Shown here piece after piece: positions 1 through 44,367 of a DNA stretch of 64,000 nt. Position numbers and translations under genes: made by a program. The notes under the pieces are model-generated. The model had not been told where the DNA came from. It was given only the letters and a program-made list of their open reading frames with translations, and searched no databases. Position 1 is the stretch's first letter; the number at the start of each line of letters is the position of its first letter. Source of the DNA: a virus; the IMG/VR virus record IMGVR_UViG_3300035698_020096, positions 16,174 to 80,173 of that record, one strand, 5' to 3'.

Positions 1-3000
1 CTGACTCCCTATTCCTTTATCACTAATCCATGAATCTTCAAATCCCATCATTAGAGAAGCTATTAGTCCCTTACCTGTAATACCTCCCTGTTGCGTTTCT
101 AAACTACCTATAAGGGGTTCAAGGTACTTCTTATTACGAATAATAGTAGAACCATGAGAATAGAAATAGCTCTTGAGGTTAGAAGGACTGAATAAACCAA
201 AGACTTGACCTACATCTATATCCCCAGTAGCCCCTGCTTTATTCCTATTTAATTGTTCAGTTACATAAGAGAAGAAGTCTGTCTTACTTCCTGGTACTTG
301 ATATAGCTCCTCTAGACCAGTAAATTTAAGTACAGCTTTAGGTAGTCCTCCAGTACCTTCAACTCTCTTACCTCCACCTACCATAATGGAACGTAAATAT
401 ACCATTTCCCATAACAACTGGTTATTATCAGCATTACCCATCAGTTGTTTAGAATCAAGTACATACTCGACACTATTCTCTGAGGCTCTATACCAGGCCT
501 GTCTATCTAGTTTAGATACGTTAGGTAAATCATTAATAGTTCTAAAGTTATCGATAACTTCTGTGAGTGCCCCTACTTGGTCTCTAGAGTCAACTACTGA
601 TTTAGTAACATAATTACCTTCAGTATCTGAATAGGTATAGTATCTATCAAAACTATCTCCAAGAGTAGCCCTTACTAGCTCTAACTTAGCTTCTCCTGTA
701 AGCTTATCCATACTTACTATTTCTTTAGGAATACCTCCCCCTTGCTTCATCATTTCCTCAGCAGAACCCCAAACTAATACTCTATTAGTATCAGAGTCAA
801 AGGTAACTATATCTCCTCTATTTGCTAACATTACCCCTTTATGGCTCCATTCCTCTGATAGTTTAGAAGACTTCTGTCTCTTCTCACTCTTATCTATAAA
901 GCCACTCATAGTACCCATACGTCCTATTACCTCAGCTTGAGACACCTTATCTAATCTCTTCCAGTCATAGCCTACAGACCTTAATTTAGATTTAACGAAT
1001 TCTCTATCATCTGTACTAGAACCATATAAAGGATTAGCCCAAGCGTAGTCACTATAGTCCCCAGTGAGTTGAACTAAAACTATAGGGTCAAATCCTTCCT
1101 TATTACCAGTAAAACCTTTAATACCCCCAGCCATAGAGTCAGCTAATTTAGCTCTAGTTAAAAGTAGCTTTCTAGCTATAGAAGTAGACCCTGGTAGAAA
1201 CTCATTATCTAAGAATCCAAATTCATCCTTAAGTTCTTTCTTAGCTTCCTCAATTAGATTAGCTATTTCGCTATTAACAACTGTTCTAAAGCCTGCATCA
1301 CTAACTACCGCTGTATTTAAATCAGTACCTACAGTCGTCTCCACCCTACTCCACATAGTTCTAAGACTACCCATTAATTCTTCACTGTTTACAGATAGTC
1401 TTTCTAAGGAAGCCCTTTCAACTACTTTCTCAATAACTCTAGAAGGATTGTACATCCCTAGATTACTAGTACCCACTACATCCCTAAGTATTTCTACAGC
1501 TCGTTTAATTCCCCATGATTCCTTCTTAGCTAATTGAGACATTAGGTCTACTTTAATACCTGTAACTCTTTCATTAATTAGACCTGATACATCTCCTTTA
1601 GTAGTAAGACGATAAGATAGTTCTCTATCTAACTCAAACATAGGTCTACCTCCCAGAACATTCTTTAAACGTTGAGGTATCTGTGAAGCTTTCTTTGCTA
1701 CATTAAACGTATAGTTTATTGACTCATTTACAGTCTCATCTTTAAATGGAGTAGCATCTATTAAATCTTTAAAGTCTTTATTTAATCCATTAGGTAAAGC
1801 TTCCCCAGATTGGATTCTATCTACTAGTTCATCCGTATTAGCTATACCCAACGTTCTTAAAGATGACGAATATTTATCATACAGCAGTTCACTTATATAA
1901 GTAACATATTGGTCTCTAGTGTTTATATAACCCACCCCTGCAAATGAGGCCAGTTGCACTGAGCTTACATCTCCAGTAGGAGTTTTATTAATACCATACA
2001 CACTAAGTCCAGTAGTTTCTTGACTAGCTGATATACCACTACCGTCTGCTACTCCTCTAATAGCCCCTTCAGTTCCCTTACCTGTAGTATTAGCAGGACC
2101 AAAGATATAAGATTGAGCTAGAGCATATCTATAAAAAGCTTCACCTTTATTCAATTTATCTATAAATATTTGTTGATTATTATTAATACCGTATAAGGGA
2201 TTTTTAAACCATGCTTGAGATGTTCCATAGGTAGAAGCTCCAGATTGAGTAATAAAGGGTTCTAACATCCCGGCCTTTACTTCTTTAATATCTGACTTTA
2301 ATTTAGTGGCATATAGAAAGTCTTTTCTACTCTCTAATATCCCTAATGCAATATCGGATTGGAAGGTACTTACACTTTCCAATCCCATGTATCTATCGAA
2401 GGTTTCTCTAATAGCGCCTACAGCATCTTTCTTAAGTGACTCAAGAGCCGATCTTCTTTCGCGACTAACTTTAGGGTCAGTTATCTCTCTATTAACATCT
2501 CTAATTAACTCAAGATGACTTAGTACTGAACGTCTAAGAGCTAAGTCAGTATCTCCATATATTTGCTCCTTAGTAAGCCCTCTATTAGCTAATCCTTCCC
2601 CTTTAGCTAACTTATCATATATACCCCCTCCAGTAAGTTCAAGAGCTCTTTTAGAAGTACCACTTACCCTCTCTCCTAAATGTTTAGTAGTAAAAGTGGA
2701 TATAAGTTTAGATATTTCATAATCACTTAATGAATTATCTAATAGGAAAGTACCAGCACTTGAATCAGTACCTCCTGAAGCTATATGACCTCTAGATAGA
2801 TATTCTAGGTAGCCTAATCCAGCAGTAGCTAATCTAGTAGTTTGAGCATCGTACTGGCTTTCCTTTAGAGCTTTCATATAAGCCATCGGCTCAGCTACTA
2901 AAGTTCTATAAGTAGTCTCTGCTGCTAATGTACTAACTACATTTATTAACGAATCTACTGGACTTAATCTCAAAGCTTCTTTAGATTTAACTACTCGGGG

Positions 3001-6000
3001 GTTTAATTCATACTCCCCAGTTTCATCATTACGAACAAAGGAACCTTCTCCATAAGGTATTCCCCCTATATCTGTGTCAGTATTATTAACAAAGAGAGAG
3101 TTACCTATTACTTTATTCTGGTCAATCAAATATACAAAGCCCTGATTAGTTCCCATCCCTCCTTTTAAACTAGTTAGTCTAAACTTAATAGGATTAAATC
3201 CAACATTAGTATCTTGGAATCCTCTATATCCAACCATATCCGCTGGATTAATAGTGAGTTCCAACGCTAGTAAACTTCCTCCTTGTCCATATATATTCTT
3301 AACTCCCAGTCCCCCTGTATCTAAACCCATATCCTTATTTAATTGTTTAACTCTAGCTGTTATTTCAGCTATACCCAGAGCATTAACTTTATTCTCCCAA
3401 CTAGCTCTAGTTCCTTCAAGAGAAGTGTCAACATTACCTACAGTAGTTTGAGTCAATCTTCTCCATTCTCTTTCTCTATCCGTACCTTGCTGAGCATAGA
3501 AGTTCTCCAAATCTGCACCTAAATTCTCCTCTTCATTTCTATATAAGATTCCTTTAGATTTAGCATGCTCTCTCATCTCTCTAGCTAAGGCAATAACTCC
3601 TACTTCAGAACTAACAGCTTCCTTATCATCTCGACTAAATGCCATTGATTCAGAACCAAAGTTAGAGCTTCCAGTAATACTAGCTATATGTCTATATGTA
3701 TCTTCTCCAAGACCCATACCAGTTCTTTCAATAGCAAATACATTTTTAACGTGAGACATAGTTTCAGTAACACCGATAATGTTACCTCTAGTCATAGCAA
3801 GTAATTGCTTAACTGTTCTATCTGCTGCCTTACTAGCTACTGCTTTAGATTTAAACTTAGACCCTAAACCTAAACTATATTTCTCTTCTATGTTGCTAAG
3901 ACTATCTCTAGAATTAACCCCGGTTTCATCTAGTCCTAATACTTTGAGTAAACTATTTCTATTACCATGCTTACTAGTGAGTTCTTGAAGACTGCTATTA
4001 TATTCGGTCTCCATTCTCAGAGAACCAATCCTCCTATAATCTTCATTAGTAAAGTCAGATAAAGAGGGTCTTCCTTCTGTCCATCCTTTAGGTTTATATC
4101 TTCCATTTCCACTATCTACAGCAGCTTTACCTAATAGGTAATGAACCCTTTCTGTCATAGGCTCTAAGACTTTATCCCTATAGTTCCTAATATCAACAGA
4201 GATATAAGCTTGATTATTAATTAGTAAATCAAATAGATTCTCTTGTATTTCATTTCTATATATAGACCTTCTATTTGATTCTCTTTTACCTGTTAGTTCA
4301 TTAAGAGAAGTTTGCCGACTATTATCAGGTCCAAACTCCCCTCCAAAGTCTCCTCCCTTACCGTAGTACAAGTCATTGTCATATTGAAGTAACCATACTT
4401 GGTTTAGGTTCATATAGACTTCTACTCTTTTATCTGAACCCATCCCCCTCTTACCCTGAGCATAAGAAAGTATAGACCGTAAACCCTGACCTATGTCCCC
4501 CGCTAGTCCTACTTGGCCCCCAGTAAAAGCTTCACCCCCTGTTGCTCTTCTAATCCCTCCAATAGCTAATCCTCTAGTTTGGAGGAATAGATGAGTATCA
4601 ACATATTCCTTAGCTTTTTCTTCCTCTATAGAATCACTCTTTTTAGATAAACCTTTAGATTCAAGAGTACCTACATCTCTCATACTCATATAATCTCTAA
4701 GGTCAGCTCCAGTATCTCTATAGTTTTTATTTATAAGTCTTATCTTCTCAGTAATAGAAGCAGTACTATCAAATCCACTGGATACAGGGTTTAATATACT
4801 TCTCATTCGATTATGAAAGATAACTATTTCTTCATAGTTAGACCCTGCTTGCACTACTGAGTTACCTACTGGGGAAGTTAAGTTAAACGAACCCAACATT
4901 GCATATCTTTCAGTGGTATATGCCTTAGGGTGATACATGCCTTCTGACATCATCTCCAAGGTAAAAGAGGGAAGAAGTTTAGCTATCTTACTATTTATAT
5001 CTAAAGCCCTTTCTTCACTAGATATAGCAATCTTATTAGAAGCTGTAGCGCTTGCCTCTAAATCAAACTCTTTATCTAATATCTTCTTTTGAAGAATATA
5101 TAGTCTTTCCATAACCACTATATTAGGCCCTAGAATCTGGTGTCCTACCATATTTCTTCTATCCCCTTCAGTAGGGCCAGCTAGTCTTAATTGAAACTTA
5201 AACTCACCTCTAGCTATACGCCCACTTTCCCTTTCTAATTTCTTAACTAGTACATCAGCTACCGCTTTATTCTGCAGTTGAAATAAATCAATAGTTAATT
5301 CTTTCTCAGCACTTTCAATAAAGGCTACAGCTGAACGTATACCTGGTTTAGCTACATAATCTGTCTCTGTAAGTATCTGATTAGATACTTCTCTAACCCT
5401 CTCAGTTATATCGGTAAACTTCCCATATTGTCTATTAAGATTAGAAGACTCTCTACTTCTTATTAATTCTTGATGATATTCAGATACACGTCTAGTAGCT
5501 CCTACTTCTTCGGTAACTAATACATTATTCATTAACCAATTACCTGAAGCTATAGTTACTCTATCTCCACCCCATTGGTGTGAGTTATACCATCCCATTG
5601 GTTTAGTAACATATAACCCTCCATATAAAGATTTATTCCCTACTTGAGTCACATCATGTTTAAATAGATGTTGGTATGTTCCGGAAGAAACATAGCCTTC
5701 CCATTCTTCTCTTCTTCTATCCTGTTCTTTACTACTGAGAGTATCATCAAAGAAGCCTTTATCTAATCCAATATTAAAGTTACCTATAACTCTATTTATA
5801 ACCTTAGTACCACTTAAGGTCAAGTCAAACACATCCTGAGAGAAAGAAGAAAATGCGTTCCTACCTAAAGCTCTAAGGACTTCAGTCTGAGGGTCTATAT
5901 TACCTGTACTAACTGATTCAGTAGATAGCTTCTTCTGCCAACCCTTTCTATTTACTTCTCTCTTTTCACTAGTTAAACCTCTATATGAGCTTTGATATCC

Positions 6001-6135
6001 AACAATTAAATTACCAGATTCGTATGTATCTGTTCTTTCTTTATTCCATGAAAGATGGAAGTTAACCGCACCTCTAAGAGCATCATCAACCCCCATATTT
6101 CTAAATGCTGAATCATAATTCTGTATCAATGCCAT
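1..6135 (-). CDS. Giant protein with a PLD-like (HKD) domain, 3' end cut by the window edge
   Basis: The minus strand is open without a stop from an ATG at 6135 to position 1, giving at least 2045 residues that begin MALIQNYDSAFRNMG; the C-terminus lies outside the window. Residues about 265-440 resemble one half of a phospholipase-D superfamily fold: a strand-helix unit (AEKELTIDLFQLQN) followed by HPK at 402-404, Glu at 409 where the classical motif has Asp, then GSFN at 415-418 and NYEE near 433-436. I could not find an equally clear second HKD motif, so a nuclease would have to dimerise or use a diverged second half. The rest is rich in charged and helix-forming sequence with no obvious membrane segment and is not recognised. 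The gene is divergent from the chaperone/portal operon. It could be an ejected virion protein or the missing tape-measure protein. The reading frame is certain; the function is not. Confidence 0.72.
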   Translation of the reverse strand, partial: MALIQNYDSAFRNMGVDDALRGAVNFHLSWNKERTDTYESGNLIVGYQSSYRGLTSEKREVNRKGWQKKLSTESVSTGNIDPQTEVLRALGRNAFSSFSQDVFDLTLSGTKVINRVIGNFNIGLDKGFFDDTLSSKEQDRRREEWEGYVSSGTYQHLFKHDVTQVGNKSLYGGLYVTKPMGWYNSHQWGGDRVTIASGNWLMNNVLVTEEVGATRRVSEYHQELIRSRESSNLNRQYGKFTDITERVREVSNQILTETDYVAKPGIRSAVAFIESAEKELTIDLFQLQNKAVADVLVKKLERESGRIARGEFKFQLRLAGPTEGDRRNMVGHQILGPNIVVMERLYILQKKILDKEFDLEASATASNKIAISSEERALDINSKIAKLLPSFTLEMMSEGMYHPKAYTTERYAMLGSFNLTSPVGNSVVQAGSNYEEIVIFHNRMRSILNPVSSGFDSTASITEKIRLINKNYRDTGADLRDYMSMRDVGTLESKGLSKKSDSIEEEKAKEYVDTHLFLQTRGLAIGGIRRATGGEAFTGGQVGLAGDIGQGLRSILSYAQGKRGMGSDKRVEVYMNLNQVWLLQYDNDLYYGKGGDFGGEFGPDNSRQTSLNELTGKRESNRRSIYRNEIQENLFDLLINNQAYISVDIRNYRDKVLEPMTERVHYLLGKAAVDSGNGRYKPKGWTEGRPSLSDFTNEDYRRIGSLRMETEYNSSLQELTSKHGNRNSLLKVLGLDETGVNSRDSLSNIEEKYSLGLGSKFKSKAVASKAADRTVKQLLAMTRGNIIGVTETMSHVKNVFAIERTGMGLGEDTYRHIASITGSSNFGSESMAFSRDDKEAVSSEVGVIALAREMREHAKSKGILYRNEEENLGADLENFYAQQGTDREREWRRLTQTTVGNVDTSLEGTRASWENKVNALGIAEITARVKQLNKDMGLDTGGLGVKNIYGQGGSLLALELTINPADMVGYRGFQDTNVGFNPIKFRLTSLKGGMGTNQGFVYLIDQNKVIGNSLFVNNTDTDIGGIPYGEGSFVRNDETGEYELNPRVVKSKEALRLSPVDSLINVVSTLAAETTYRTLVAEPMAYMKALKESQYDAQTTRLATAGLGYLEYLSRGHIASGGTDSSAGTFLLDNSLSDYEISKLISTFTTKHLGERVSGTSKRALELTGGGIYDKLAKGEGLANRGLTKEQIYGDTDLALRRSVLSHLELIRDVNREITDPKVSRERRSALESLKKDAVGAIRETFDRYMGLESVSTFQSDIALGILESRKDFLYATKLKSDIKEVKAGMLEPFITQSGASTYGTSQAWFKNPLYGINNNQQIFIDKLNKGEAFYRYALAQSYIFGPANTTGKGTEGAIRGVADGSGISASQETTGLSVYGINKTPTGDVSSVQLASFAGVGYINTRDQYVTYISELLYDKYSSSLRTLGIANTDELVDRIQSGEALPNGLNKDFKDLIDATPFKDETVNESINYTFNVAKKASQIPQRLKNVLGGRPMFELDRELSYRLTTKGDVSGLINERVTGIKVDLMSQLAKKESWGIKRAVEILRDVVGTSNLGMYNPSRVIEKVVERASLERLSVNSEELMGSLRTMWSRVETTVGTDLNTAVVSDAGFRTVVNSEIANLIEEAKKELKDEFGFLDNEFLPGSTSIARKLLLTRAKLADSMAGGIKGFTGNKEGFDPIVLVQLTGDYSDYAWANPLYGSSTDDREFVKSKLRSVGYDWKRLDKVSQAEVIGRMGTMSGFIDKSEKRQKSSKLSEEWSHKGVMLANRGDIVTFDSDTNRVLVWGSAEEMMKQGGGIPKEIVSMDKLTGEAKLELVRATLGDSFDRYYTYSDTEGNYVTKSVVDSRDQVGALTEVIDNFRTINDLPNVSKLDRQAWYRASENSVEYVLDSKQLMGNADNNQLLWEMVYLRSIMVGGGKRVEGTGGLPKAVLKFTGLEELYQVPGSKTDFFSYVTEQLNRNKAGATGDIDVGQVFGLFSPSNLKSYFYSHGSTIIRNKKYLEPLIGSLETQQGGITGKGLIASLMMGFEDSWISDKGIGSQ

Positions 6136-6472: not shown

Positions 6473-6919
6473 ATGGCACCAGAACGTTCAAATCTATTAA
6501 CTATTGAATTCCCTGAGTTTACTCTACCTTCTGGTAAAGTAGTAGCATTTCGTTCCATTACCTTCCGAGAACGTCGAAAGTTAATGAAAGATTATAAAGG
6601 TAGAGAGGAAGGTTATGCAGCAGAAGACTTGTTTGCTGCGTATGCTTTATCTAAAGAAGATGGTATGCCTGTAGCAGACGATTGGGCTATTGATGGTGGA
6701 GTTATTGCTAGATTAGACCATTGGTCTATGAAAGACTTTGCTTATTATCTTGAAGTATTTGTTAGAACCATTGGTTTAGAAGAAGACGAACGTACTAGTG
6801 CTGAATCCGCAGCAAAAAAGATGGTGGCAGCAAGTGGTACTCAGCAAGTGAATACTACCAATCAATCTTTACCCAAGGGGCTCAAAGTACAACCATCTGG
6901 TGGTACTACCGGTTTATAA
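6473..6919 (+). CDS. Tail assembly chaperone (gpG-like, zero-frame product)
   Basis: A 148-residue soluble acidic protein beginning MAPERSNLLTIEFPEF. Size, the opening F-x-LPSG segment and above all the gene structure match the first of two overlapping tail-assembly-chaperone frames of long-tailed phages (lambda gpG/gpGT, P2 E/E'). Near its 3' end the in-frame heptamer A AAA AAG (6814-6820) allows a -1 slip into a frame that stays open to 7440. Such chaperones coat the tape-measure protein during tail assembly. Here the gene heads the structural operon immediately before the portal, rather than sitting between tube and hub. Arginine codons are a mixture of CGN and AGA. There is no Shine-Dalgarno sequence before the ATG. 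Identification rests mainly on the frameshift architecture. Confidence 0.68.
   Translation: MAPERSNLLTIEFPEFTLPSGKVVAFRSITFRERRKLMKDYKGREEGYAAEDLFAAYALSKEDGMPVADDWAIDGGVIARLDHWSMKDFAYYLEVFVRTIGLEEDERTSAESAAKKMVAASGTQQVNTTNQSLPKGLKVQPSGGTTGL
6814..6820 (+). promoter_or_regulatory. Programmed -1 frameshift slippery site A AAA AAG
   Basis: The zero frame reads GCA AAA AAG, the canonical X XXY YYZ heptamer also used in E. coli dnaX. Slipping back one base moves the ribosome into the frame that is open from 6805 to 7440. I see no strong downstream stem-loop; a weak TGGTA/TACCA pairing lies about 15 nt further on. Confidence 0.72.
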
Positions 6920-7440
6920 ATCCTTCATTAATATATAATCAATCCACAAGGTTAGGCGGTATTTTAGATTACTCATTTGAACCTAAGAATCTAAGTCGAT
7001 ATCTAAGCTGCCCTTATCTAGCTAAATACATATCTGTACTACATATATCCGATAATACTTATGTAACTGCTATACGAAAGCTAGGCTTAATTCCTAATAT
7101 CCTATTCTTCTCTAGAAGATATATATCAGCTGAGTTCTATGTTATGAAAGCATTAATTATAGATGCTATAGCAGATAATATTAGGAAGCAAGCCCATCTT
7201 GATGATTGGATAAGAGTAGCTAATATCTGTAATATTGGCTTACTAGATGGGTTTGGATTCTTAGACCTCTGTGAGTTCTGGAGAACCGCTCTATTAAAGA
7301 GTATTAATGATTATATTAAACAACAGAATGATTCTCAGAAGGAGGTAATGAGATCTATAGAAAGTAAGATGGATAAAGATATTTCACATAATAGTGTTTT
7401 CTCTAGTATTCCTAGTACTAAACACATGTTAGGTAATTAG
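6820..7440 (+). CDS. -1 frame extension of the tail assembly chaperone (gpGT-like)
   Basis: After a -1 slip at 6814-6820, translation continues as DGGSKWYSASEYYQ and runs 206 residues to the stop at 7438-7440, giving a fusion of about 322 residues with the first 116 residues of the upstream protein. The frame has no stop between 6805 and 7437. Its first ATG is only at 7144, so without the frameshift more than 300 open bases upstream of that ATG would be unexplained. The sequence looks like genuine protein: hydrophobic and aromatic in its first half, helical and charged toward the C-terminus. In lambda the extension (T) recruits the tube protein while the common part binds the tape measure; the same role is inferred here. 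A separate short 98-residue protein from ATG 7144 cannot be excluded. Confidence 0.68.
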   Translation, partial: DGGSKWYSASEYYQSIFTQGAQSTTIWWYYRFINPSLIYNQSTRLGGILDYSFEPKNLSRYLSCPYLAKYISVLHISDNTYVTAIRKLGLIPNILFFSRRYISAEFYVMKALIIDAIADNIRKQAHLDDWIRVANICNIGLLDGFGFLDLCEFWRTALLKSINDYIKQQNDSQKEVMRSIESKMDKDISHNSVFSSIPSTKHMLGN

Positions 7441-7545: not shown

Positions 7546-8934
7546 ATGGATAAAAGTCCTTCAGAAGAATCTAATTCCACAATAGTCACATTACCCCCTA
7601 TTGAGATATCTCCTAGATATAGAAGGAGACCTATATATCTAGGGCAGATGGGTAAGGCTATATCTTATATAGCAAATGACAACGATATATTTACAACTTG
7701 TGTAAGGCCTAGTACAGAGCAATTGGCTCTATGGGATTCAGCTACTAGGAAAGAACCTATTATCTTTGATGGTCTACAAAAGATGACCTTAGCTATTAAA
7801 GCTAAGCTAGGTACTTACACGCATCCTACACACCCTGAGATTACTAAGTTTGTCAGGGCTAATACAAAAAGATTAAAGAAATGGATAGGAGATGCAGCTC
7901 ATATGGCTTTATGGTCAGGTTCTGCTACTGGTGAAATAGTTCATGAGAGAAGAAAAGGACCTAATGGGGAATGGCAAGTATGGGTCAAGGATATAGTATT
8001 CTATCATCCTTTAGACCCCTTATTTATAGTTAATCAAAACGGTGCTTTAACGCATGGGGAGAAGTTGATTAATAGTCCTTTTCTAACGGGAGTATGGGTT
8101 CCTTGTTCTCAATCTCTTATTAATAGAGGTAGGAGTCTCGGTCCTTCCTTCAGTGGCTCTCATGTTAGATTACCTAAGACCAAGGTATTTCATACTACTC
8201 TTAATGGTCAAAGTAATAATCCTTATGGTATATCTCAATTAGAGGCAGCTATTAAATATCATATATATAAAGAAGCCTTCCTTGAAATGCAAGGGGCTGC
8301 CTTAGATAGGTATGGTACTCCTCTTATATATGCAGTAGTTCCAATGCAACCTACTAAGGATGATATTGAAGAGCCTGATGGAACTACTAGAAAGAAATGG
8401 TATCACGAGTTAGCTACTGAGTTACTATCTGATTTAAGAGGGCAACAATCTATTGTTCTAACTCAGATGGACAAAGACCATCCAGTTAAATTAGAAACCC
8501 TTACTACAGGTAATAACTTTAGTGATGCTTTTAATCAAGCCATTGACCTATGTGATGATAACATAATGATTGCTATGGGTATACCCAACCTAATTCTTAA
8601 AGATAAGAATCAAGGCTTAGGTACTGGGGGTGCAGCTGAAAGACAGATGGAAGCCTACCATATGTTCATAGGAGAGATATATGAGACTATTACTGATGCA
8701 ATACTTGAACAGGTTATATCTCCTTTAATCCTATGGAACTTTGATTATCAAGTCTATACTGAAGCTTATGACCACGGAGGCTTTGGTAGTAAGGCTATTA
8801 GAACTTCAGAGAATGCAGTTCAAGCTACATATATTGAGAAGTTAGTAAACATGGGAATTGTTGACCCAACTGATTCCCGAGATAGAGACTGGGTAAGGGA
8901 TTTATTTAATGCTCCTATTACAAGAGATGAATAA
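7546..8934 (+). CDS. Portal protein (DUF935 / Mu gp29-like)
   Basis: This 462-residue protein has the hallmarks of the Mu-type portal family. The block NPYGISQLEAAIKYHIYKEA lies at about 225-245 and is closely followed by LDRYGTP, which matches the conserved core of DUF935 proteins; the length is close to the family norm. Portals form a dodecameric ring at one capsid vertex through which DNA is packaged and ejected and to which the neck attaches. The gene stands directly upstream of the other head genes, as expected, though no terminase gene is in the window. Arginine is encoded almost only by AGA/AGG, unlike the capsid gene, fitting a low-copy protein. The start is the first ATG of the frame and has no Shine-Dalgarno sequence. 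Confidence 0.88.
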   Translation: MDKSPSEESNSTIVTLPPIEISPRYRRRPIYLGQMGKAISYIANDNDIFTTCVRPSTEQLALWDSATRKEPIIFDGLQKMTLAIKAKLGTYTHPTHPEITKFVRANTKRLKKWIGDAAHMALWSGSATGEIVHERRKGPNGEWQVWVKDIVFYHPLDPLFIVNQNGALTHGEKLINSPFLTGVWVPCSQSLINRGRSLGPSFSGSHVRLPKTKVFHTTLNGQSNNPYGISQLEAAIKYHIYKEAFLEMQGAALDRYGTPLIYAVVPMQPTKDDIEEPDGTTRKKWYHELATELLSDLRGQQSIVLTQMDKDHPVKLETLTTGNNFSDAFNQAIDLCDDNIMIAMGIPNLILKDKNQGLGTGGAAERQMEAYHMFIGEIYETITDAILEQVISPLILWNFDYQVYTEAYDHGGFGSKAIRTSENAVQATYIEKLVNMGIVDPTDSRDRDWVRDLFNAPITRDE

Positions 8935-10004: not shown

Positions 10005-10017
10005 TTCTATACTTAAT
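9996..10017. terminator. Hairpin between convergent genes
   Basis: ATTAAGTA and TACTTAAT form an 8-bp AT-only stem around a 6-nt loop, spanning the stop codons of the converging 8973 and 10453 genes. It is plausible as a bidirectional terminator but thermodynamically weak. Confidence 0.3.
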
Positions 10018-10453
10018 CCTTAAATCTATTAGATAGATAACTAGCCGCCCTTTTCTTATTTAGTAAAGTCCCCTTCAACATAAGGATATGTTTACAAGGC
10101 CCTCCTTTATTCCTACTTTTCCATTGATAGTTTCCACAAGAACACTGGTAGGGTTCAGTAGATATTTGATACTCATTGCCCTTGGGACTAATACAAAGAA
10201 ATCCATTAGGTATAGGGGCAATAAAATAACCTAGAGTAATCATTTCCCCATACATAAGAATATAAAACATATTCTCAGTGGTCTCCCATAGATGATTACT
10301 AATGTCGATAATTCTTTTTACCCCTGAATTATCCTTCCATACTAAATAAGGTGTATTATTCTCTATCTTTATTTCAACAGTGGATTTCTTATCTAACCTC
10401 ATTTCTTCTGTAAGGATAGATTTAAGTAAGAGATATTCAAATGTAAGATTCAT
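10013..10453 (-). CDS. SWIM zinc-finger protein
   Basis: A 146-residue protein whose C-terminal region carries Cys104-x-Cys106-x13-Cys120-x-His122 (CSCGNYQWKSRNKGGPCKH), the pattern of the SWIM domain, a zinc-binding module known from bacterial helicase-associated proteins, transposases and recombination-associated proteins, where it binds DNA or protein. The N-terminal 100 residues are a mixed alpha/beta region without a motif I recognise. It is one of few minus-strand genes inside the structural block, convergent with the fibre-like gene and divergent from the protease gene, so it is probably expressed separately. A regulatory or DNA-binding role is possible; nothing shows a virion role. 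Confidence 0.65.
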   Translation of the reverse strand: MNLTFEYLLLKSILTEEMRLDKKSTVEIKIENNTPYLVWKDNSGVKRIIDISNHLWETTENMFYILMYGEMITLGYFIAPIPNGFLCISPKGNEYQISTEPYQCSCGNYQWKSRNKGGPCKHILMLKGTLLNKKRAASYLSNRFKD

Positions 10454-18427: not shown

Positions 18428-21400
18428 ATGTCAGCACCCCGTATTAACTTTCAAGAATTAAATGAGGGCTATTCCCCTATTCGTCCAAATGTGAATAATA
18501 GGATTGGAATATTAGCTCCTTTCTCTAAAGGCCCAGCTAATCAATTAACGTTTATATCTGGATATTCTGATTTCTCTGACCGATATGGTTCAGATAACTC
18601 AATAGGTTCTACTGCATTTCAAGCAGCATGGGACCAGAAAGCTACTGAGTTTGGATTACTTCGAGTGTTAGGTAGAGCTAGACCTGCATCAGGTCGAATT
18701 AACTTTGGAGGTTATACCAGTAAACCTAATAGTCTAGTTCTTCTAATGAGCTTTATAGGAGAAGCTCTACCGCAATCAGATAGAATCCTCACCTCAAGCA
18801 TTTTCACTAGTGGTAACTTTAGTAGCACTACTACAGGCCGCTTCTGGTTCTTAGTAGATAGTATCGATGATGATGGTTTCATTAAACTTAAATACATCTT
18901 TATTCCTCAAGGTATTGAAAACTATATAAACTGGTATCCAGAATATAGAGAACCTCAGGATTTAACTATAGACCCTACATTTCCATTAAATGGTATTGGT
19001 AATAATCTACTTAATGAAACCTCCGATATCTCTAGTATTAGCTCTTCAATTTTAAAGATTGAAGGAGCTGAACCTATGACCTTCGTTGATGGGTGTTTAG
19101 GTTTAGGTGGAACGGGAGAAGTATGTACTCTAGGTATGGTTGAAGGTTGGAAGGTAACTATCGAAGCTGGACAGATGAGATGGGTATGGCATGTAGACAA
19201 TTCTGGTACTAACTATCGTTTAAATCAACCAGAGTCAGGTTATATAGGAACTCTACCTGTTATTATCCCTGGAACAGAGGGTAATTCTAGTTTCAATACA
19301 GCTATTGATAGTGCAGTACTTACTGATACTAGAAGTGGAGAAATGGTTTCCTTCGAAGGAGTACATGCTTCTAATCCTAGGAGTGGCGCTATTAACCCTT
19401 CAGTAATGCCTGTATATGACTATGTAATTCTACATAAGACTGATAAAGGTATTCCTGTCACTATTGATAAAGGAGTATTTCTTAGCTTTGGTACTATGTC
19501 TCAAGTAGATGATATTAGTCTTCAACCAGGAGATATGTGGACAGTTAAGGTAGCTCACTTTGATTATGAGATTCCCTTATATGTAGATGCTTCCCCTAAT
19601 CAAGTAGTAACTAGCATTATCGAGAAGATTCAGGGAGTTAATCCTATTGGTATGGTAGAGCGCAATCAAGCGGATAATGGTATTATTTTCTCTCTTGATG
19701 AAAACTCTCTTACTGGTTCAGTAGGTAATAACTTTAGCTATCATGTTGAGTTAACTGAACCAGATGGGGAAGTAGTAACTGAAGGTAACTTTTATAGTGG
19801 TGAAAGATATATACAGGTTCCTATTAGATATGCTACTTACATTCAAGAAGGAGCTGAATTAAGAATCATTGATACTCCTGGTATATATGGAGTAGTTAAT
19901 ATATCTAATCCCTTTGACCCCGCATCTCCTACTCAATCACCTAATAAATCTCTTCTTCCTACCATCACTAGAGTTTTAAGAGTAGAAGCTCCTATTACTG
20001 GAGGAGGTCTAGCTACTATTTGGTTGGATAAAGATGTAGTAGCTGACTTTGATTCTATAGCTATCTTTCACTTCATGAATCCAACTGGATTAAACATGAC
20101 CCATTATACTTACTACCAAGCTAACTTTTTGCAAGGTGGTGAAGATGGGCCTAGAAGAGCTGAAAGGGATTTCTATAGTCTAGATGGTATTCCTCTACTT
20201 AAACTAGTAGCTACTAGTGAAGGAGCTTGGGCTAATAACTTAAAGTTAAGCGTTTATCCTATTGATAATAAACGAATTCAGGTTAGTATTACTGATTTGA
20301 ATAAGGATAATTACAACCCCCCGATTAGAGACGAAATTCATATATTCTCTTTTGAAGATACTGATGAGCAAGGTTTTATAACTAGACTTAACCCTTCTAA
20401 CTTTATAAGGGGAATCTTTCTGCCTAAGTATGCTAACCCTAACTATAACGTTGGGATGTTGCGTAAGAGCCCTATGCGTCTAGCTCCTCCGGATAATACA
20501 GTAGTAGACTCAGAGGATGCAGCACATCCAGAGAACTTTGGACCTCGTATTCTTAAAGACTTTACCTTAGAAGGAGGTTACGATGGCCCTCCTATTCAAG
20601 ATGAAGATTATATTAAAGCTCTGGACCAAGTAAGGAATCAACCTGTACATATCCTTATTGCCCCAGGCCAATACAGGTCTACCGTAGTTAAGTCTAGACT
20701 ATTAGCCCAAGCTGAGAATGCTAATGAACTAGAAGGATTACGAATAACCTTAATTAATGCAAGACCTGGATTAACCCCCGAAGCAGCTATGGCTGAAACT
20801 ATTGGATTTGATTCGGATAAAGGAGTAATGGTGGCTGGATGGTCTACATATGCCGGTAAGCAAGGAGCCCCTAGATTTGGACTATCCCCTGATACTCTAC
20901 TTGCTGGTAAACTATCTGGTATTCCTTTCCATGTAAGCCCTGCTGCTCGTACTACTAGTGGTCCTATCTTTGGTATTGCTGAAGTAGATACTCAACCCTA
21001 TACCTCTAGAGCTCAATTAAACCTTTATCACAATGCACGATTAGAAGCAGTACATATTGACCCTGCTACTAACTCCTTTAACTTCCTTAATGGGAGAAGC
21101 TTAAGTTCTAATCAACAATGGGACCGTATTAGCTTCAGACGTACCTTTAACGTTGTAAGGATGGATGTAGCTCAGAACTTACAGCAATATAAGAGTGAAC
21201 CTAATACCGCTGCTCTAAGAACTCGTATAGCTAGTTCTATTGATGCCTACTTAAGCACCTTAAAGCGTAACGGAAGTATTAGTGCATTTCAAGGTGCTGA
21301 AGTTGCTAGTCCTAATCCTGCCTCGGGTCTAGCAACTATTAGATTCGGATTAGCACCAGTATATGCTTTAGATTACATAGATGTGTATCTAATTCGTACT

Positions 21401-21430
21401 GATGATGGAACCATTACTAGACCAGATTAA
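18428..21430 (+). CDS. Tail sheath protein
   Basis: A 1000-residue contractile sheath protein. The N-terminus has the sheath pattern: an early G-I-L-A-P-F-S-K-G-P segment, I-S-G-Y-S-D-F-x-x-x-Y-G and a helix that includes A-A-W-D-Q-K. The C-terminal domain has the conserved order of sheath proteins: YLSTLKRNGSISAF after a helix (LQQYKSEPNTAALRTRIASS), then a closing beta strand (IDVYLIRTDD). Sheath subunits wrap the tube and contract to drive it through the envelope. At 1000 residues it is larger than T4 gp18 (659), the extra length lying in a middle insertion of beta domains (about 130-640) that would face outward. The following gene encodes the tube. A mixture of CGN and AGA arginine codons is used. 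Confidence 0.88.
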   Translation: MSAPRINFQELNEGYSPIRPNVNNRIGILAPFSKGPANQLTFISGYSDFSDRYGSDNSIGSTAFQAAWDQKATEFGLLRVLGRARPASGRINFGGYTSKPNSLVLLMSFIGEALPQSDRILTSSIFTSGNFSSTTTGRFWFLVDSIDDDGFIKLKYIFIPQGIENYINWYPEYREPQDLTIDPTFPLNGIGNNLLNETSDISSISSSILKIEGAEPMTFVDGCLGLGGTGEVCTLGMVEGWKVTIEAGQMRWVWHVDNSGTNYRLNQPESGYIGTLPVIIPGTEGNSSFNTAIDSAVLTDTRSGEMVSFEGVHASNPRSGAINPSVMPVYDYVILHKTDKGIPVTIDKGVFLSFGTMSQVDDISLQPGDMWTVKVAHFDYEIPLYVDASPNQVVTSIIEKIQGVNPIGMVERNQADNGIIFSLDENSLTGSVGNNFSYHVELTEPDGEVVTEGNFYSGERYIQVPIRYATYIQEGAELRIIDTPGIYGVVNISNPFDPASPTQSPNKSLLPTITRVLRVEAPITGGGLATIWLDKDVVADFDSIAIFHFMNPTGLNMTHYTYYQANFLQGGEDGPRRAERDFYSLDGIPLLKLVATSEGAWANNLKLSVYPIDNKRIQVSITDLNKDNYNPPIRDEIHIFSFEDTDEQGFITRLNPSNFIRGIFLPKYANPNYNVGMLRKSPMRLAPPDNTVVDSEDAAHPENFGPRILKDFTLEGGYDGPPIQDEDYIKALDQVRNQPVHILIAPGQYRSTVVKSRLLAQAENANELEGLRITLINARPGLTPEAAMAETIGFDSDKGVMVAGWSTYAGKQGAPRFGLSPDTLLAGKLSGIPFHVSPAARTTSGPIFGIAEVDTQPYTSRAQLNLYHNARLEAVHIDPATNSFNFLNGRSLSSNQQWDRISFRRTFNVVRMDVAQNLQQYKSEPNTAALRTRIASSIDAYLSTLKRNGSISAFQGAEVASPNPASGLATIRFGLAPVYALDYIDVYLIRTDDGTITRPD

Positions 21431-31193: not shown

Positions 31194-32433
31194 GTTAGAC
31201 AGCAAACCAATATTACATAGATATAGCCATATAGGTGAGGAATTAAATGACCCTTATTATGAAGCTCTATGGGATAAATCAGAAGCCTCCATTCTTAGAT
31301 ATAAACATATACTCTTTACTATTAAATCTAATCTAAGTAATCCTAGAGTAACTAAACTTGAAAGATTAAATAATGTAATCCATTCTTATTTAATAACGCT
31401 TTTAATTAGTTCTTATATAGGAGACCAAGGTAGAACTTCAATAACCCCTCATTTTAATAAGTTAATTAAATATAATCCTGAATTTAATATAAGAAATCTC
31501 TACCCTTCTACCCCCTATGTAAAGTCTTTAGTAGATGATAGATTATGTACCTGGGGAGGACCCTTTGGTACTATTACTTATTTCCTTCATCTAGTTCAAA
31601 TGAAGAAGGAATATTTAACTCCTTCACAAATAACTAGTTTATCTATTAGAACCTGTGTAAAGTTTAATACTCTTAATCCTAAATTTCCTATTGACTCTTT
31701 AACTGAGTACGAGGATTACATCTCTAACTACCCTCTTCAGATATTAGAGATTGAAGATATAAAGAAAGCTTTTAATCTGTTAGATAAATTAGTTAATATC
31801 TTACCCCTTATTCTTAATTGGTATCTAGGCTCATATATGAGTAGAGGAATACCTAATCCCCCTGCTTCTCCTATCCCTAGTAGTAATGAATACGAAGCTT
31901 ATAAGACTCTAGCAGACATAGGTAAACTTTTAATGTCTAGGGGCTTAGATGGAAAGAGTGGTTTAACTTCCTATGATTTAATTCATCAATCCTTACCACC
32001 CATATGGACTTCTACTATTGAAGATGTAATAGCTATTAGAGAAAATACTTTATATGATATTAACTTCAATAATGAAACTCCTCATGAGAATCTATGTAGA
32101 CAATTGATTGGTTCTATATCTAGAGGGAATCAAGGAGTAATAAGAAAAGCTAATTATCAGATACTTAATAATATGTTTCCCCCAGGAGGATATAATCTAT
32201 TACTTCTGATTACAGCTTTAGCCCTGGTTAATAGAGCTTATATACTAACCTTTCCTCCTAATGAACCTACAACCCAAGATATAAATAAAGCCTTGGGTGC
32301 GATATATAAAGCAGGTATATGTTTAAGAAAGAGTAATCTAAATCATTTAATGCTTATTGGTAATAACTTGACTCAACTATCTAATAAGAGCGATAATTCC
32401 CCTATTAATATAAAGGACCCTAGGTATGAATGA
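31186..32433 (+). CDS. Hypothetical helical baseplate-operon protein
   Basis: A 415-residue protein made mostly of helices with few charged clusters; no family is recognised. It contains a Pro-rich loop (GIPNPPASPIPSS) around residue 222 and a hydrophobic helix (YNLLLLITALALVNRAYIL) near 335, which may be buried rather than membrane-spanning. Its start overlaps the previous gene and its stop overlaps the next, so it is made in step with them. Being coupled to the 1138-residue protein suggests a shared assembly, possibly an assembly factor or inner baseplate part. Confidence 0.5.
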   Translation: MAKLDSKPILHRYSHIGEELNDPYYEALWDKSEASILRYKHILFTIKSNLSNPRVTKLERLNNVIHSYLITLLISSYIGDQGRTSITPHFNKLIKYNPEFNIRNLYPSTPYVKSLVDDRLCTWGGPFGTITYFLHLVQMKKEYLTPSQITSLSIRTCVKFNTLNPKFPIDSLTEYEDYISNYPLQILEIEDIKKAFNLLDKLVNILPLILNWYLGSYMSRGIPNPPASPIPSSNEYEAYKTLADIGKLLMSRGLDGKSGLTSYDLIHQSLPPIWTSTIEDVIAIRENTLYDINFNNETPHENLCRQLIGSISRGNQGVIRKANYQILNNMFPPGGYNLLLLITALALVNRAYILTFPPNEPTTQDINKALGAIYKAGICLRKSNLNHLMLIGNNLTQLSNKSDNSPINIKDPRYE

Positions 32434-35400
32434 AGAGAAAGATGATTTACTTGAATCTGTAGATAAAGATTTAAATCAACATATAGCTATGGCTGAAGAG
32501 CTATTGGACTATACAGATAATGTAACTAATAAACAATCCGAAGCCCCCGATTTAAATAGTAAAGATGTAAGTTCAGAGGATTTAATACCAGCTAATATTC
32601 TATCTGAACCTAGATATGCTGCTTTTGGTGCAGGACCAATAGAGACAGCTCAGAATACAGTTACTGAAACTATGACTAAATCAGTAAAGAATACCTCTGA
32701 TAAGGTTGAAACTGTGGCTGCCCTTAGTAGTGATAAAGCTGAGGGTTCTATTGAGGGTTCTATTGAGGATGGTTATAAATCTATACTTGCACAAGTAAAT
32801 AAGGGTACTAATAATAAAGCTGTAGAAGCATTAGAAGAAGCTAAGAATAATGTAGAAGGAAGTAATGGTGTAGCTATTGTATCCAATACTGAAGTACAGG
32901 TATCTTCCTTTAATACATTCTCTATTAATTCAGGTAGAGTAGGAACTATTCAAGCCCCTCTTTTAGTATCCCAAGCTTCTAGTAATATTGATTATTCCGA
33001 AGTAAAGACTATCATCAATAATCTTCAGAATGAGAGAAGCAGATATAGATATGCTGAAAGTGATAGAGATATTAATGTAACTAATAAGGATTTGAGAGTA
33101 GCTCAATCAAGTGAAGAAAGAGTGCTTAGAAAGAGTCTGGAAGCTGTTCAATCCTATGATGAAACCTCCAGTCTTATAGCTAGGAACAGTGAGAAGGATA
33201 CAGTTATTACAGATAACAGAGAATCCTTTGTAACTCAGGATGATATTCAACAGGCTCAGAAAGGAGGTATTCATTTCGTAATAGGTAATAGTGGTACTCC
33301 TGCTAACGCACCTGCACTATTTAGACCCATTCTTCCTGGTGAATTTAATCCTATGCAACAAACTCTATGGTCTATGAAAGGAGGGAAAATAGAGGCTACA
33401 TCTACCCATGAGTTTAATCTTAAGACTGGGAAGAGTAATACCACTGCTAAGAATATAGGTCTTATAGCTAAAGACAATCTTTCCTCTATTGCTTCCAATA
33501 ATGGAGTATATGGGGATATGACAACAATGATTGGTAAGAAAGCTCTTAGTACTGGAACTGACCTTCTATTTATGACTACTATGATTGGTAAGTTTACCTT
33601 TATGGGTGGCTTTTTATCTGTACTTCATCAGATATTAGATAGTGATATATCCCGAGTAGCACAGATAATTCTACCTCGTATTAAACTACCTACTAATTTA
33701 CCTATCCCTCCTTTACCTCCTAAAGCCTCCGCTTATACTGAGATTGACCTAAGAAAGTGTTTACCTAACTATGAAGACGATACCATTGCTGGGTATGAGT
33801 CAGATGATGGGTTAAGTAGACCCTCAGACTCTCTTGACTTTAGCGGTAGTAATGATGGGGGTATAGTAACACCTACATTTGAAGAGTTGGATGACTTAAG
33901 TGGAAATACTCAATCATCTGACGGAGATATTATTACTGGAAGTCAAGGGAATGATATGAACACTAGTAATAGGTCTGTTGGTAATTCACCTAGAGCTGAG
34001 CCTAACGCTTCCATTAATACTCCTCCTACAAGAGCAGAAACAAGGGCTGAGTTGAACAAACAGAAAGCAGTTAATAACGAGATTATTCCTGCTTCGTCTG
34101 ATAGTGGACCTCCTTCTTCTGTTGCCTGGAAGGAAGCTCAAACTAGTACTGAAAGTGTTACTACTGAAACCACTTCTTCTTCTTCTAGTACTTCTACTTC
34201 TTCTTCTAGTACTTCAGCCACCGATACATTTAAACAGAGTCAAGGAGGTGTTGATTTAACTCATAAGACAGCGTTTACTCCTAACACTTACTTAGAGATA
34301 TACCAATTAAAACCTCTTAAGTTTAATAATTTTAATGAACCCCCAGTTGATAATCCAAACTCTACGGTCAAAGAGGGAGTCCAAGCTATTACTATTAACT
34401 TTCTAAATGAAGAATTAAAGAAGGATTCTATTTTAACTGATATAGATAAGAAGATACTTGAAGATAAAGCTAAGAGTATGGAAGTATTTGAAGCTTTACA
34501 AAGAGGTGAGATACCTGAAGATTTAACTGATAATCAAAAAGCATTTCTTAAGAAAGTACTAGAGTCTCTTTCTATAACTGTAGGTATTGGAGCTATATCT
34601 ATCCCTGGAATTATTAAATCTTTAGTGCCTGATACTGTATCTAGATTTATAGATAAAGTTACTCAGGTAGGAGATAAGTTACTAAGTAAGGTTAATACTA
34701 ATACTAATGACCTTATATCTAATTTAAAGGAAGGTAAGAAAGAGGCTCTTATTGGAATAGGTAAATCAGCTTTAAAGGGAATTCAATCAGGAGATATAAC
34801 GGGTATAAAAGCGAAACTTAATGATTTGATGCTAGATATATTTCAAGAACAAGGTGGAATAGTTCCTACATTTCCTAGTGAATCAAATCCTTTAGATGGT
34901 AATGTTCTTAGAGATATAATCATTCCTCCTGATTTATATGGGGATATATCCCCTATTCTAGTTAGTTACATTCTTGAACCTGAAAGTTCTATTGAATCTA
35001 TTGAGTCCTTAGTTAAAACTACTCTTAGAGATTACTTTGGAGATAAGGTTGATAATGCTGAATCTATATATAGGAAGATATCTCCTCTTATTAAGAAGGT
35101 TAAGAATGGAGATATTCTAGACCTAATAAGTAAAGGCAATTTAAGAAATACTGTTTCTACTCTAGGAGGGGATTCTTTAGTCAATCAAGTAGATTCAGTA
35201 ATAGATAATATTGAGTCTATTATTGGTACTACTAGGTCTATTCAAGCTATACCTGCTCTTCTAAAACTAATGAATGAAGAGAAGATACCTACTTTATCTA
35301 AAGTAAGTACTATTCTTTCTTGTTTAGACTTAGCTGATAGAATATCTGATTTAGTAGGTATAGCTAAATCTCCACTTACATATACACCTAAAGCGGATAT

Positions 35401-35842
35401 CCCAGAGGTATTTACTTTCTTTGATGAAATAGAAGCTGTGGATGAAACCCTTTTTAAAGATATAGATACAGAAGAAGGGGCTGTTTCGTCTATCTATAAT
35501 AATTACTCAGCTAAGTTAAATCCTTATATGGATACAGCTTTAGTAACTCAACAACCCACCTGCGCTCCGCCCCAAATAACTAATATTCCTTCTAATGAAA
35601 TAGTTAGAACTACTAATGGGGACAAAGACTCATCCCTAGGTTTTATTACTTATCCCAAACCCAATAAGTCTTTATCTTTAAGTGAGTTTATAACTATGGT
35701 TAAAGAAAGTCTAGTTGATACTCAATTTCTTATTAGTATTAATAGCGATACTAAAGAGCAACTAGCTCCAATAGAAAAGGATTCCTTCTTTATTAATGCT
35801 AAGAAATACCCTGATACATATCAAGTTAACATCTATTACTAA
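32426..35842 (+). CDS. Large modular virion protein of unknown function
   Basis: A 1138-residue protein. Residues 1-300 are acidic and low in hydrophobics, like a disordered or coiled region. Around 370-400 lie consecutive hydrophobic stretches (LLFMTTMIGKFTFMGGFLSV) that could insert into a membrane. A Ser/Thr tract (SSSSSTSTSSSSTSA) sits near 585-600. Residues about 690-990 are helical repeats of Ile/Leu/Asp-rich type. The last 20 residues (FFINAKKYPDTYQVNIYY) match the end of the next gene's product, which reads FILQAKKYSNDFSINIYY, so the two share a C-terminal domain. It is a fallback candidate for a tape-measure or ejected protein because of its length and hydrophobic patches, but it lacks long continuous coiled coil. 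Confidence 0.5.
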   Translation: MNEEKDDLLESVDKDLNQHIAMAEELLDYTDNVTNKQSEAPDLNSKDVSSEDLIPANILSEPRYAAFGAGPIETAQNTVTETMTKSVKNTSDKVETVAALSSDKAEGSIEGSIEDGYKSILAQVNKGTNNKAVEALEEAKNNVEGSNGVAIVSNTEVQVSSFNTFSINSGRVGTIQAPLLVSQASSNIDYSEVKTIINNLQNERSRYRYAESDRDINVTNKDLRVAQSSEERVLRKSLEAVQSYDETSSLIARNSEKDTVITDNRESFVTQDDIQQAQKGGIHFVIGNSGTPANAPALFRPILPGEFNPMQQTLWSMKGGKIEATSTHEFNLKTGKSNTTAKNIGLIAKDNLSSIASNNGVYGDMTTMIGKKALSTGTDLLFMTTMIGKFTFMGGFLSVLHQILDSDISRVAQIILPRIKLPTNLPIPPLPPKASAYTEIDLRKCLPNYEDDTIAGYESDDGLSRPSDSLDFSGSNDGGIVTPTFEELDDLSGNTQSSDGDIITGSQGNDMNTSNRSVGNSPRAEPNASINTPPTRAETRAELNKQKAVNNEIIPASSDSGPPSSVAWKEAQTSTESVTTETTSSSSSTSTSSSSTSATDTFKQSQGGVDLTHKTAFTPNTYLEIYQLKPLKFNNFNEPPVDNPNSTVKEGVQAITINFLNEELKKDSILTDIDKKILEDKAKSMEVFEALQRGEIPEDLTDNQKAFLKKVLESLSITVGIGAISIPGIIKSLVPDTVSRFIDKVTQVGDKLLSKVNTNTNDLISNLKEGKKEALIGIGKSALKGIQSGDITGIKAKLNDLMLDIFQEQGGIVPTFPSESNPLDGNVLRDIIIPPDLYGDISPILVSYILEPESSIESIESLVKTTLRDYFGDKVDNAESIYRKISPLIKKVKNGDILDLISKGNLRNTVSTLGGDSLVNQVDSVIDNIESIIGTTRSIQAIPALLKLMNEEKIPTLSKVSTILSCLDLADRISDLVGIAKSPLTYTPKADIPEVFTFFDEIEAVDETLFKDIDTEEGAVSSIYNNYSAKLNPYMDTALVTQQPTCAPPQITNIPSNEIVRTTNGDKDSSLGFITYPKPNKSLSLSEFITMVKESLVDTQFLISINSDTKEQLAPIEKDSFFINAKKYPDTYQVNIYY

Positions 35843-43255: not shown

Positions 43256-44367
43256 GTATTCCTAAACTACTAATAGTAGGAGCAGGACCTAGAGGTATAG
43301 GTCTTGCCCTTAGAGCTATTCATAGTGGAATAGAAACCACTATAGTAGACCCCTTCCCTTTAAAGACTTGGACTCCTCCTAATATGCTTATAGATATGAG
43401 TATGAGAAGTCCGATAGGATTTGATTTAGTTACCTTTTGTTCTGACCTTAAAGAATATAGTCTTAGTTATTATCTAGGTTCTTATAATGATATACAAGAA
43501 CAGAAGGAAATAGAGGTTCAGCATCAACCCATAAGTAGAGATATATTTGTTAAATACTTAAATCATATATGGGATTATGTGGGACCAAGAGTTAATTATA
43601 TAGATAAACCTATTACTCAAATAGGGAAGGATTATGTAATAGCAGGGGATAGAAAGATAGTTACTGATAACATAGCTATTGCTCTAGGTTCTCCTTCTAA
43701 ACTTAATGTTCCTAATTACGCTAGACCCTTTGTTTCCTCAGATAATTTATTAGGAACTAAAGAAATAATACTAAATAAACCACTGGGACTAACTATAGCC
43801 GTAATAGGTTCAGGTCAGAGTTCAGCTGAACATGTGGATTACTTAACTCCTGATAATAAGGTTATATGGGTAACCAATAAGGAAACTAAAGTACACCTCT
43901 ACCCGGTTCCCCCTTATTCTATTTGGGGACCAAAGTCAGCTTTAGGAGATTATTTTAGTAGATTAAAGGAAAGTGATAAAAAGGCTGCTTTAAAATATAT
44001 GAAAGAAGTAGCTGGGTGGACTCCTTCTATTACCCCCTCTATAGCTAAATCTCTTGAGGAGAAATCTCACTTAATCACTAAGGTAATGCCTCAAGATATA
44101 AATACCTATATATCAAAAGTAGATAAGGTTCTCCTATGTATTGGATTTAACACCTCTTTAGATAACATCCCCTTTTCTATTCCTATTACTAAGGAAATTG
44201 TTAAATCAGACTATCCTGAATTAAATAACTTTAAGTCTCCTGAAGGTATATATTTTACTGGGGACCTAGCTAAGTTTTATGATGGACCTAGACAAGGTTC
44301 CCTTATTTCTATTGGAATTACATCTAAGACAATAGTAGAAGACATTCTATCAAATCATTATGGATAA
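43252..44367 (+). CDS. FAD/NADPH-dependent N-monooxygenase-like oxidoreductase
   Basis: A 371-residue flavoprotein unexpected in a baseplate operon. The first Rossmann motif is VGAGPRGIGLALRA (Gly10-x-Gly12-x-x-Gly15), the FAD site of the lysine/ornithine N-hydroxylase class. The second is VIGSGQSSAEHVDYL (about 184-198), the NADPH site typical of that class. VDKVLLCIGFN at about 290-300 stands for the D-x3-[LF]-ATGY signature in degenerate form, and a C-terminal FAD-contact segment has TGDLAKFYDG. Family members hydroxylate amines in siderophore synthesis; the substrate here is unknown. At 371 residues it is shorter than IucD/PvdA types (about 430). It overlaps both neighbours (4 and 8 bp), so it is an integral operon member rather than a recent insertion. 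It could be a metabolic gene or a domesticated baseplate component. Confidence 0.78.
   Translation: MSIPKLLIVGAGPRGIGLALRAIHSGIETTIVDPFPLKTWTPPNMLIDMSMRSPIGFDLVTFCSDLKEYSLSYYLGSYNDIQEQKEIEVQHQPISRDIFVKYLNHIWDYVGPRVNYIDKPITQIGKDYVIAGDRKIVTDNIAIALGSPSKLNVPNYARPFVSSDNLLGTKEIILNKPLGLTIAVIGSGQSSAEHVDYLTPDNKVIWVTNKETKVHLYPVPPYSIWGPKSALGDYFSRLKESDKKAALKYMKEVAGWTPSITPSIAKSLEEKSHLITKVMPQDINTYISKVDKVLLCIGFNTSLDNIPFSIPITKEIVKSDYPELNNFKSPEGIYFTGDLAKFYDGPRQGSLISIGITSKTIVEDILSNHYG

Follow-up and report, generated by a model that had tools for sequence, protein, structure and literature searches.

The gene that precedes the portal gene in the phage sequence analysed here is very probably expressed in two forms. 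Low-level -1 frameshifting on the heptamer A_AAA_AAG would yield a short product, G, and a 322-aa fusion, G-T, which would form a tail chaperone pair. The window, that is the whole stretch of 64,000 nucleotides that was analysed, extends from base 16174 to base 80173 of a viral record 80,173 bases long, which is incomplete or has unknown ends. By sequence comparison the reading is based on the T frame, the shift site, the absence of another start and the selection that appears to act on T in one clade; the predicted fold of G lends it less firm support. From these we infer the slippage itself, its rate, the role as chaperone and the client. The features concerned are:

6473..6919, plus strand: gene G, the putative short chaperone in the zero frame, an ORF of 148 aa with homologues in 18 other distinct records.
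6814..6820, plus strand: candidate shift site A_AAA_AAG in the phase of G, its two full codons being G codons 115-116.
6820..7440, plus strand: putative T extension, 206 aa read in the -1 frame past the shift; this frame opens at 6805.
7144..7146, plus strand: first ATG of the -1 frame, 110 codons past the first base of the heptamer and the likely choice of a gene caller.

Judging by its proteins, the window phage is a cyanophage related to Microcystis phage Ma-LMM01 and Microcoleus phage My-WqHQDG. Its G is 32% identical to that of My-WqHQDG (E 5e-13) and 26-27% identical to those of LMM01 and several MaMV phages (E 2e-4 to 5e-3). Moreover, the portal is 37-42% identical to the portals of LMM01, the MaMV phages and My-WqHQDG, and the capsid protein 44-46% identical to the capsids of LMM01 and My-WqHQDG, the latter being cut at the end of its locus. 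The tail is contractile, given that a sheath gene is present. An earlier note on this DNA, made from the sequence alone, had spoken of a jumbo-type myovirus; the word 'jumbo-type' is not supported, the record having 80,173 bases and the named relatives 162-182 kb.

7546..8934, plus strand: portal protein gene, next downstream of G/T (Portal_Mu, E 5.2e-22; phrog_113).
18428..21430, plus strand: tail sheath gene (PF17482, E 9.6e-10; phrog_30392, E 3.5e-155).

The G/T arrangement was compared in 19 distinct records, namely the window, five annotated phage loci and 13 viral contigs obtained from portal and G alignments; loci L020-L024 repeat contigs already counted and stand outside the 19. Twelve of the records form the LMM01 group and are near-identical to each other. 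Contig L009 begins inside G, which is cut at its 5' end, and L017 is the most distant relative, with 22% and 28% identity over two G-like stretches. These stretches seem to stand in tandem in a G of 266 aa (L017 7102-7902, minus strand), and in this contig G, T and a giant frame form one minus-strand series. No relative was found when viral contigs were scanned with a single G or T sequence, when phage records were searched by tblastn with T alone, or when bacterial genomes were searched with the portal alignment.

Codons 114-117 of G are GCA AAA AAG ATG, which gives A_AAA_AAG the right phase for tandem -1 slippage. The codon phase thus bears out the in-phase heptamer that the earlier note had placed at 6814-6820 in the frame beginning at 6473. 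Its other readings of this region also hold: positions 6805-7440 are open in the -1 frame, whose first ATG lies at 7144, and the junction AAKK-DGGSK is correct, 116 residues of G being followed by 206 of T. No GTG or TTG stands ahead of that ATG either. The copy in G is the only in-phase A_AAA_AAG among the 19,867 codons of 37 window ORFs, each of at least 140 codons. The closed window ORFs of at least 140 codons contain 51 Lys-Lys pairs, of which 11 are written AAA_AAG and one has an A before it. When the bases of 6920-7440 were shuffled, one chosen frame stayed open in none of 20,000 trials. A longer -1 open frame is found at five other ORF ends, where it starts 1-8 codons before the stop and is the next gene; at G it starts 37 codons before the stop.

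T lies in the -1 frame of G in all 19 distinct records. The heptamer stands in phase at the homologous Lys-Lys codons in 16 of them (the window, the 12 records of the LMM01 group, L007, L018 and L019), which amounts to five of the seven lineages as we grouped them. Between the heptamer lineages the ungapped nucleotide identity near the site is only 29-41%, and the shift site therefore outlasts most of the sequence that surrounds it. With the T protein, its frame and the site kept over such distances, the prospect that a chance open frame lies beside a chance heptamer is negligible. Presence of the heptamer in relatives had been set beforehand as a test by which the reading could be refuted, and apart from a few exceptions the result favours the reading. 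The 16 records just named carry it, whereas L002 (My-WqHQDG) and L008 have A_AAG_GAG at the homologous codons (GCA AAG GAG) and L017 has a poly-A run in another phase, with its G/T on the strand opposite to the portal. L019, which is 83% identical to L002 in G, carries the heptamer, so that A_AAG_GAG in L002 and L008 is probably a loss within the clade.

An independent start well upstream in the second frame had been named as the other refuting finding, and none is present in the 15 sequences examined: from the point where the -1 frame opens up to the shift site a scan for ATG, GTG and TTG found nothing, and the earliest such codon comes 53-137 codons past the site. In L019 it is GTG 5768, which falls downstream of the conserved T core LDNWVAIAN and leaves this core out of reach for an ordinary start. 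Moreover, the substitutions show purifying selection on T in one clade, ahead of any start codon. Between L002 and L008 the 25 T codons that separate the G stop from the first start hold nine synonymous and no non-synonymous changes, and in the overlap all three changes are silent in T and non-silent in G. For the stretch of T after the G stop and before the start, dN/dS is 0.20 (L002 against L019) and 0.08 (L008 against L019). In the overlap the T frame gives weak values against L019, 0.52 for L002 and 0.69 for L008, the zero frame being aligned there over only 10-11 codons. Within the LMM01 group the T stretch before the start shows 3-5 changes per pair, which are mixed and too shallow; L004 and L015, for instance, differ there by one synonymous and three non-synonymous changes. 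In the overlap, two changes between L010 and L004 are silent in G and not in T, and two between L003 and L015 are silent in T and not in G. For L007 and L018, dS before the start is near 1 and dN/dS is 0.72. Together the selection and start data argue against an independent ordinary start of T.

T could nevertheless be a separate gene, with the heptamer incidental; its translation would then begin at a start of its own, perhaps a non-standard one, or by ribosomes that re-initiate once past the G stop. The ATG at 7144 would agree with this, as would the records of LMM01, three MaMV phages and My-WqHQDG, which annotate T as a separate short ORF, and T4-like phages reportedly make their chaperones without frameshifting (reference list, PMC10885494). 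We regard such a gene as highly unlikely, because 53-137 codons past the site are free of ATG, GTG and TTG in 15 of 15 sequences, the first start of L019 lies past the conserved core, and in L002 and L008 the T frame is conserved before any start as well as inside the overlap. The programmed -1 frameshift of G/GT type that the earlier note had proposed is well supported by these comparisons (-1 frame in 19/19 records, heptamer in 16/19, startless T in 15/15 sequences).

In the proposed frameshift, ribosomes would initiate at 6473 and most of them would stop at 6919, giving G (148 aa). On A_AAA_AAG a small share would slip by -1, the lysyl-tRNAs of the P-site and A-site re-pairing one base upstream, and would read the T frame to 7440, giving the 322-aa G-T. 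G and G-T would be a tail assembly chaperone pair made from one start, in which the G part would coat a long tail protein, be it the tape measure or another, and the T part would recruit tube subunits.

In E. coli, A_AAA_AAG is reported among the three most efficient heptamers when stimulators are present, and A_AAG as the most shift-prone tetramer, for which a strong stimulator is required (PMC4066793). The shiftiness has been tied to a single tRNA-Lys that reads both codons, as in about half of the known bacteria (PMC5009743). By a simple pattern that may miss genes, and ARAGORN on chosen hits, tRNA-Lys UUU only was found in a Microcystis MAG and a Planktothrix genome, and UUU together with CUU in Microcoleus vaginatus and a Pseudanabaena MAG; the MAGs may be incomplete. 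No tRNA was found in the 80-kb record of the window phage.

A downstream pseudoknot or hairpin was rejected as a general stimulator, the shuffle z ranging from -1.77 to +1.82 over four lengths and eight sequences with no shared structure. In the window no Shine-Dalgarno-like stimulator was seen either, and in view of both results the efficiency of frameshifting may be low. The GGAGG just upstream of the site in LMM01-like sequences was rejected as a stimulator for being too close, since it lies nearer to the site than the usual spacing of a Shine-Dalgarno stimulator. A low slip rate would suit the function, as the lambda G and GT products stand at about 30:1 (PMC5009743). In L002 and L008 a 29-base stretch chosen by hand (L002 6322-6350; L008 7391-7419) can form a hairpin of -12.4 kcal/mol, with 5 of 200 shuffles as good; the same stretch of L019 gives -4.3 kcal/mol, with 45 of 200 as good. 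It is possible that this hairpin, in a stretch that was chosen post hoc, compensates for the missing heptamer; in the broader test of downstream structure L002 and L008 gave z of -1.3 to +0.7.

The run of six A's could also act on the mRNA itself, if transcriptional slippage inserted a base in part of the transcripts and so opened the T frame. The run is present in the heptamer lineages and, in another phase, in L017. However, a run of six A's is short for polymerase slippage to be efficient, T stays in the -1 frame in L002 and L008 although these have just three A's there, and 16 of 19 records show the phase that is canonical for a tandem slip, so that we consider this route extremely improbable.

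A chaperone role of G and G-T is likely, judging from the predicted fold of G. Its model was built from 8 sequences and has a pLDDT of 69. When 589 PDB chains were aligned to it the best was YqbN (3KLU; Z 7.2, 96 residues, rmsd 5.2), which we take to be a member of the XkdN-like tail chaperone family. The tail assembly chaperone of HK97 (2OB9; Z 5.3, 94 residues, rmsd 4.2) was the second entry and 5IR0, a PICI protein, the third (Z 4.8), the others reaching at most 2.2. Identity of G to YqbN and to the HK97 chaperone is 10-12%, and a Z below 8 can mean merely a common arrangement and is not proof of kinship. In a Foldseek search of the PDB the G model gave E 0.33 for 3KLU and 1.0 for 2OB9, with no match below 0.001. 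Among viral models (BFVD) an uncharacterized protein matches best (E 0.001). Of the 50 matches listed, 8 bear the name of a tail assembly or tape measure chaperone, and the best of these belongs to Bacillus phage Gemini (E 0.021, probability 0.99). The matches listed also include gp181 and gp182 of phage G and one T4-like hub assembly protein. These fold matches, each weak alone, together fit the chaperone reading of G.

No family was found for G in Pfam, and a PDB profile search with G gave nothing convincing. In PHROGs, eight of nine G rows fell in the unnamed phrog_32670 and only unnamed PHROGs were reached at E <0.1. For T, Pfam gave only one sub-threshold, chance-level family, and the best PHROGs match (E 0.0074, in 3 of 10 rows) was to an unrelated family; the T model is poor (pLDDT 47.6) and unusable. 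The tail chaperone identity put forward in the earlier note is moderately supported on the side of the predicted G fold, by the YqbN and HK97 matches with Z below 8.

Two further genes bear on the client of the putative chaperones:

1..6135 of the window, minus strand: 5' part of a giant neighbour gene, a possible client; HxK...GSxN lies here and DFDGD outside the window.
32426..35842, plus strand: alternative tape measure candidate, 1138 aa, by size and position.

The location beside the portal, which had been described as unusual, is real and conserved: in all 19 records G/T is followed by the portal gene, and in 17 of the 19 its other side is taken by a homologous giant gene. In the window G/T is not between tube and hub. 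The exceptions to the giant gene are L009, which begins inside G, and L017, in which the giant frame (at least 2188 aa) is dissimilar and had no match to the other giant genes at E up to 10. Giant gene and G point in opposite directions in the window, the LMM01-like loci, L007 and L018, and they share a strand in L002, L008 and L019, as do G and the giant frame of L017. A gap of about 2.4 kb, holding at least three ORFs, separates the end of the giant gene from G in L018. The whole giant gene of the window phage (G000:C1:7939-22308, minus strand; window 1-6135 plus L025) encodes 4789 aa and that of LMM01, MAP_080 (L026:7701-18389, minus strand), 3562 aa; a further homologue is L027:1-7869.

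DxDGD is invariant in the five giant genes aligned, which are otherwise 24-31% identical to the first. The motif resembles the active site of two-barrel RNA polymerases, and the giant protein is possibly a virion RNA polymerase. A PDB profile search with the DxDGD region found no two-barrel polymerase (best E 0.35, to an unrelated chain), and for the three giant proteins scanned Pfam gave nothing above the curated cut-off. In Thermus phage P23-45 the same motif is reported to have revealed a polymerase fused to a tape measure protein of 5,002 residues, and its gp96 is described as having, beyond the motif, no detectable similarity to known two-barrel polymerases (PMC10770324). A phospholipase-D-like motif, HxK...G(S/T)xN, was also noticed in the N-terminal parts of the giant proteins (window ~4882-4932, minus strand; LMM01 MAP_080, residue 287), and similar motifs were seen by eye in L017:3-6566 and L018:3-2621, both on the minus strand.

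It is possible, if doubtful, that G and G-T are dedicated chaperones of the giant protein, which would serve both as tape measure and as virion RNA polymerase and would carry a phospholipase-D-like part at its N-terminus. If so, a frameshifted chaperone would serve to bring an injected polymerase into a contractile tail, and G/T would stand in the usual neighbourhood of chaperone and tape measure, kept through inversions. The intervening ORFs of L018 and the dissimilar giant frame of L017 slightly lowered our estimate of this. The 1138-aa protein is the positional counterpart of LMM01 MAP_098 (1177 aa), to which it has a weak match (E 3e-5 over 131 aa), and 32426..35842 is thus a candidate for the tape measure gene. 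The existence of this other candidate of 1138-1177 aa argues against the giant protein as tape measure. Tape measure proteins account for 0.15 nm per residue. The tail of MaMV-DH01 is reported to measure 230-260 nm (PMC9927357), and the giant protein is far longer than such a tail needs, which is a further argument against it. In addition, the early genes of Ma-LMM01 are reported to have SigA-like, host-type promoters (PMC5780444), which makes the need for a virion polymerase doubtful, and the accessible text of the MaMV-DH01 paper reports no RNA polymerase (PMC9927357).

The same neighbourhood would suit a real frameshift whose product is not a tail-tube chaperone and instead escorts the giant neighbour or serves the head, given that the portal (19/19) and the giant gene (17/19) adjoin G/T, far from tube and hub, and that the 1138-aa tape measure candidate lies elsewhere. 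We consider this unlikely, because the best structural matches of the predicted G fold are tail assembly chaperones and because in L018 G stands about 2.4 kb away from the giant gene, with other ORFs in the interval. Moreover, the giant protein may include the tape measure, as reported for P23-45 (PMC10770324), in which case escorting it and acting as tail chaperones would both be true of G and G-T.

Some other genes of the window were recorded in passing. A tail-cluster protein (26906-28825, plus strand) has VanY-like carboxypeptidase, beta-lactamase-like and polysaccharide deacetylase domains. A lysine/ornithine N-monooxygenase-like flavoprotein gene (43252-44367, plus strand) lies within the series of baseplate and fibre genes, and the annotations of MaMV-DH01 and My-WqHQDG place similar genes in their tail gene series. 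A small SWIM zinc-finger gene (10013-10453, minus) runs on the opposite strand in the interval from the portal region to the protease gene, and a minus-strand ORF occupies a comparable place in LMM01, three MaMV phages and My-WqHQDG.

The slip site of phage lambda is GGGAAAG, unlike the A_AAA_AAG found here, and the genes also differ from those of lambda in their order, giant gene-G/T-portal, and in showing no Pfam sequence similarity to known chaperone families. The likeness to lambda gpG/gpGT, as described in PMC5009743, lies in a short G with a -1 shift near its 3' end, a T without its own start, and two products from one start. The HK97 chaperone (2OB9) and YqbN (3KLU) are the best PDB matches of the G model, although only at the identities and Z values given above. 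The hub assembly chaperones of T4, of the gp26/gp51 type, have the contractile tail in common with the window phage, and the BFVD matches listed for G include a T4-like hub assembly protein. They differ in that they are reportedly made without frameshifting, T4 being named as an exception in PMC5009743. E. coli dnaX has the same heptamer in the same phase (PMC5009743); it is reported to possess an upstream internal Shine-Dalgarno sequence and a downstream stem-loop (PMC5600365, PMC7282821), whereas no such element is consistent here.

In the literature we found no description of this frameshift in the LMM01 group (searches included Fukuivirus with frameshift, from 2019), and the accessible text of the PRFect paper makes no mention of Microcystis or cyano-. 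Under the present reading, two genes that five LMM01-like records annotate as hypothetical would gain a likely function and the second product that the annotations miss. Frameshifting of the G/GT type would also be extended to phages described as T4-like, as Ma-LMM01 has been (PMC5780444), though T4 itself is the named exception. Moreover, the family may offer a natural comparison of shift sites, with A_AAA_AAG in five lineages and a sister clade that combines A_AAG_GAG with a stronger hairpin at the site. More surprising as a lead than the frameshift is the neighbouring giant gene, a possible client.
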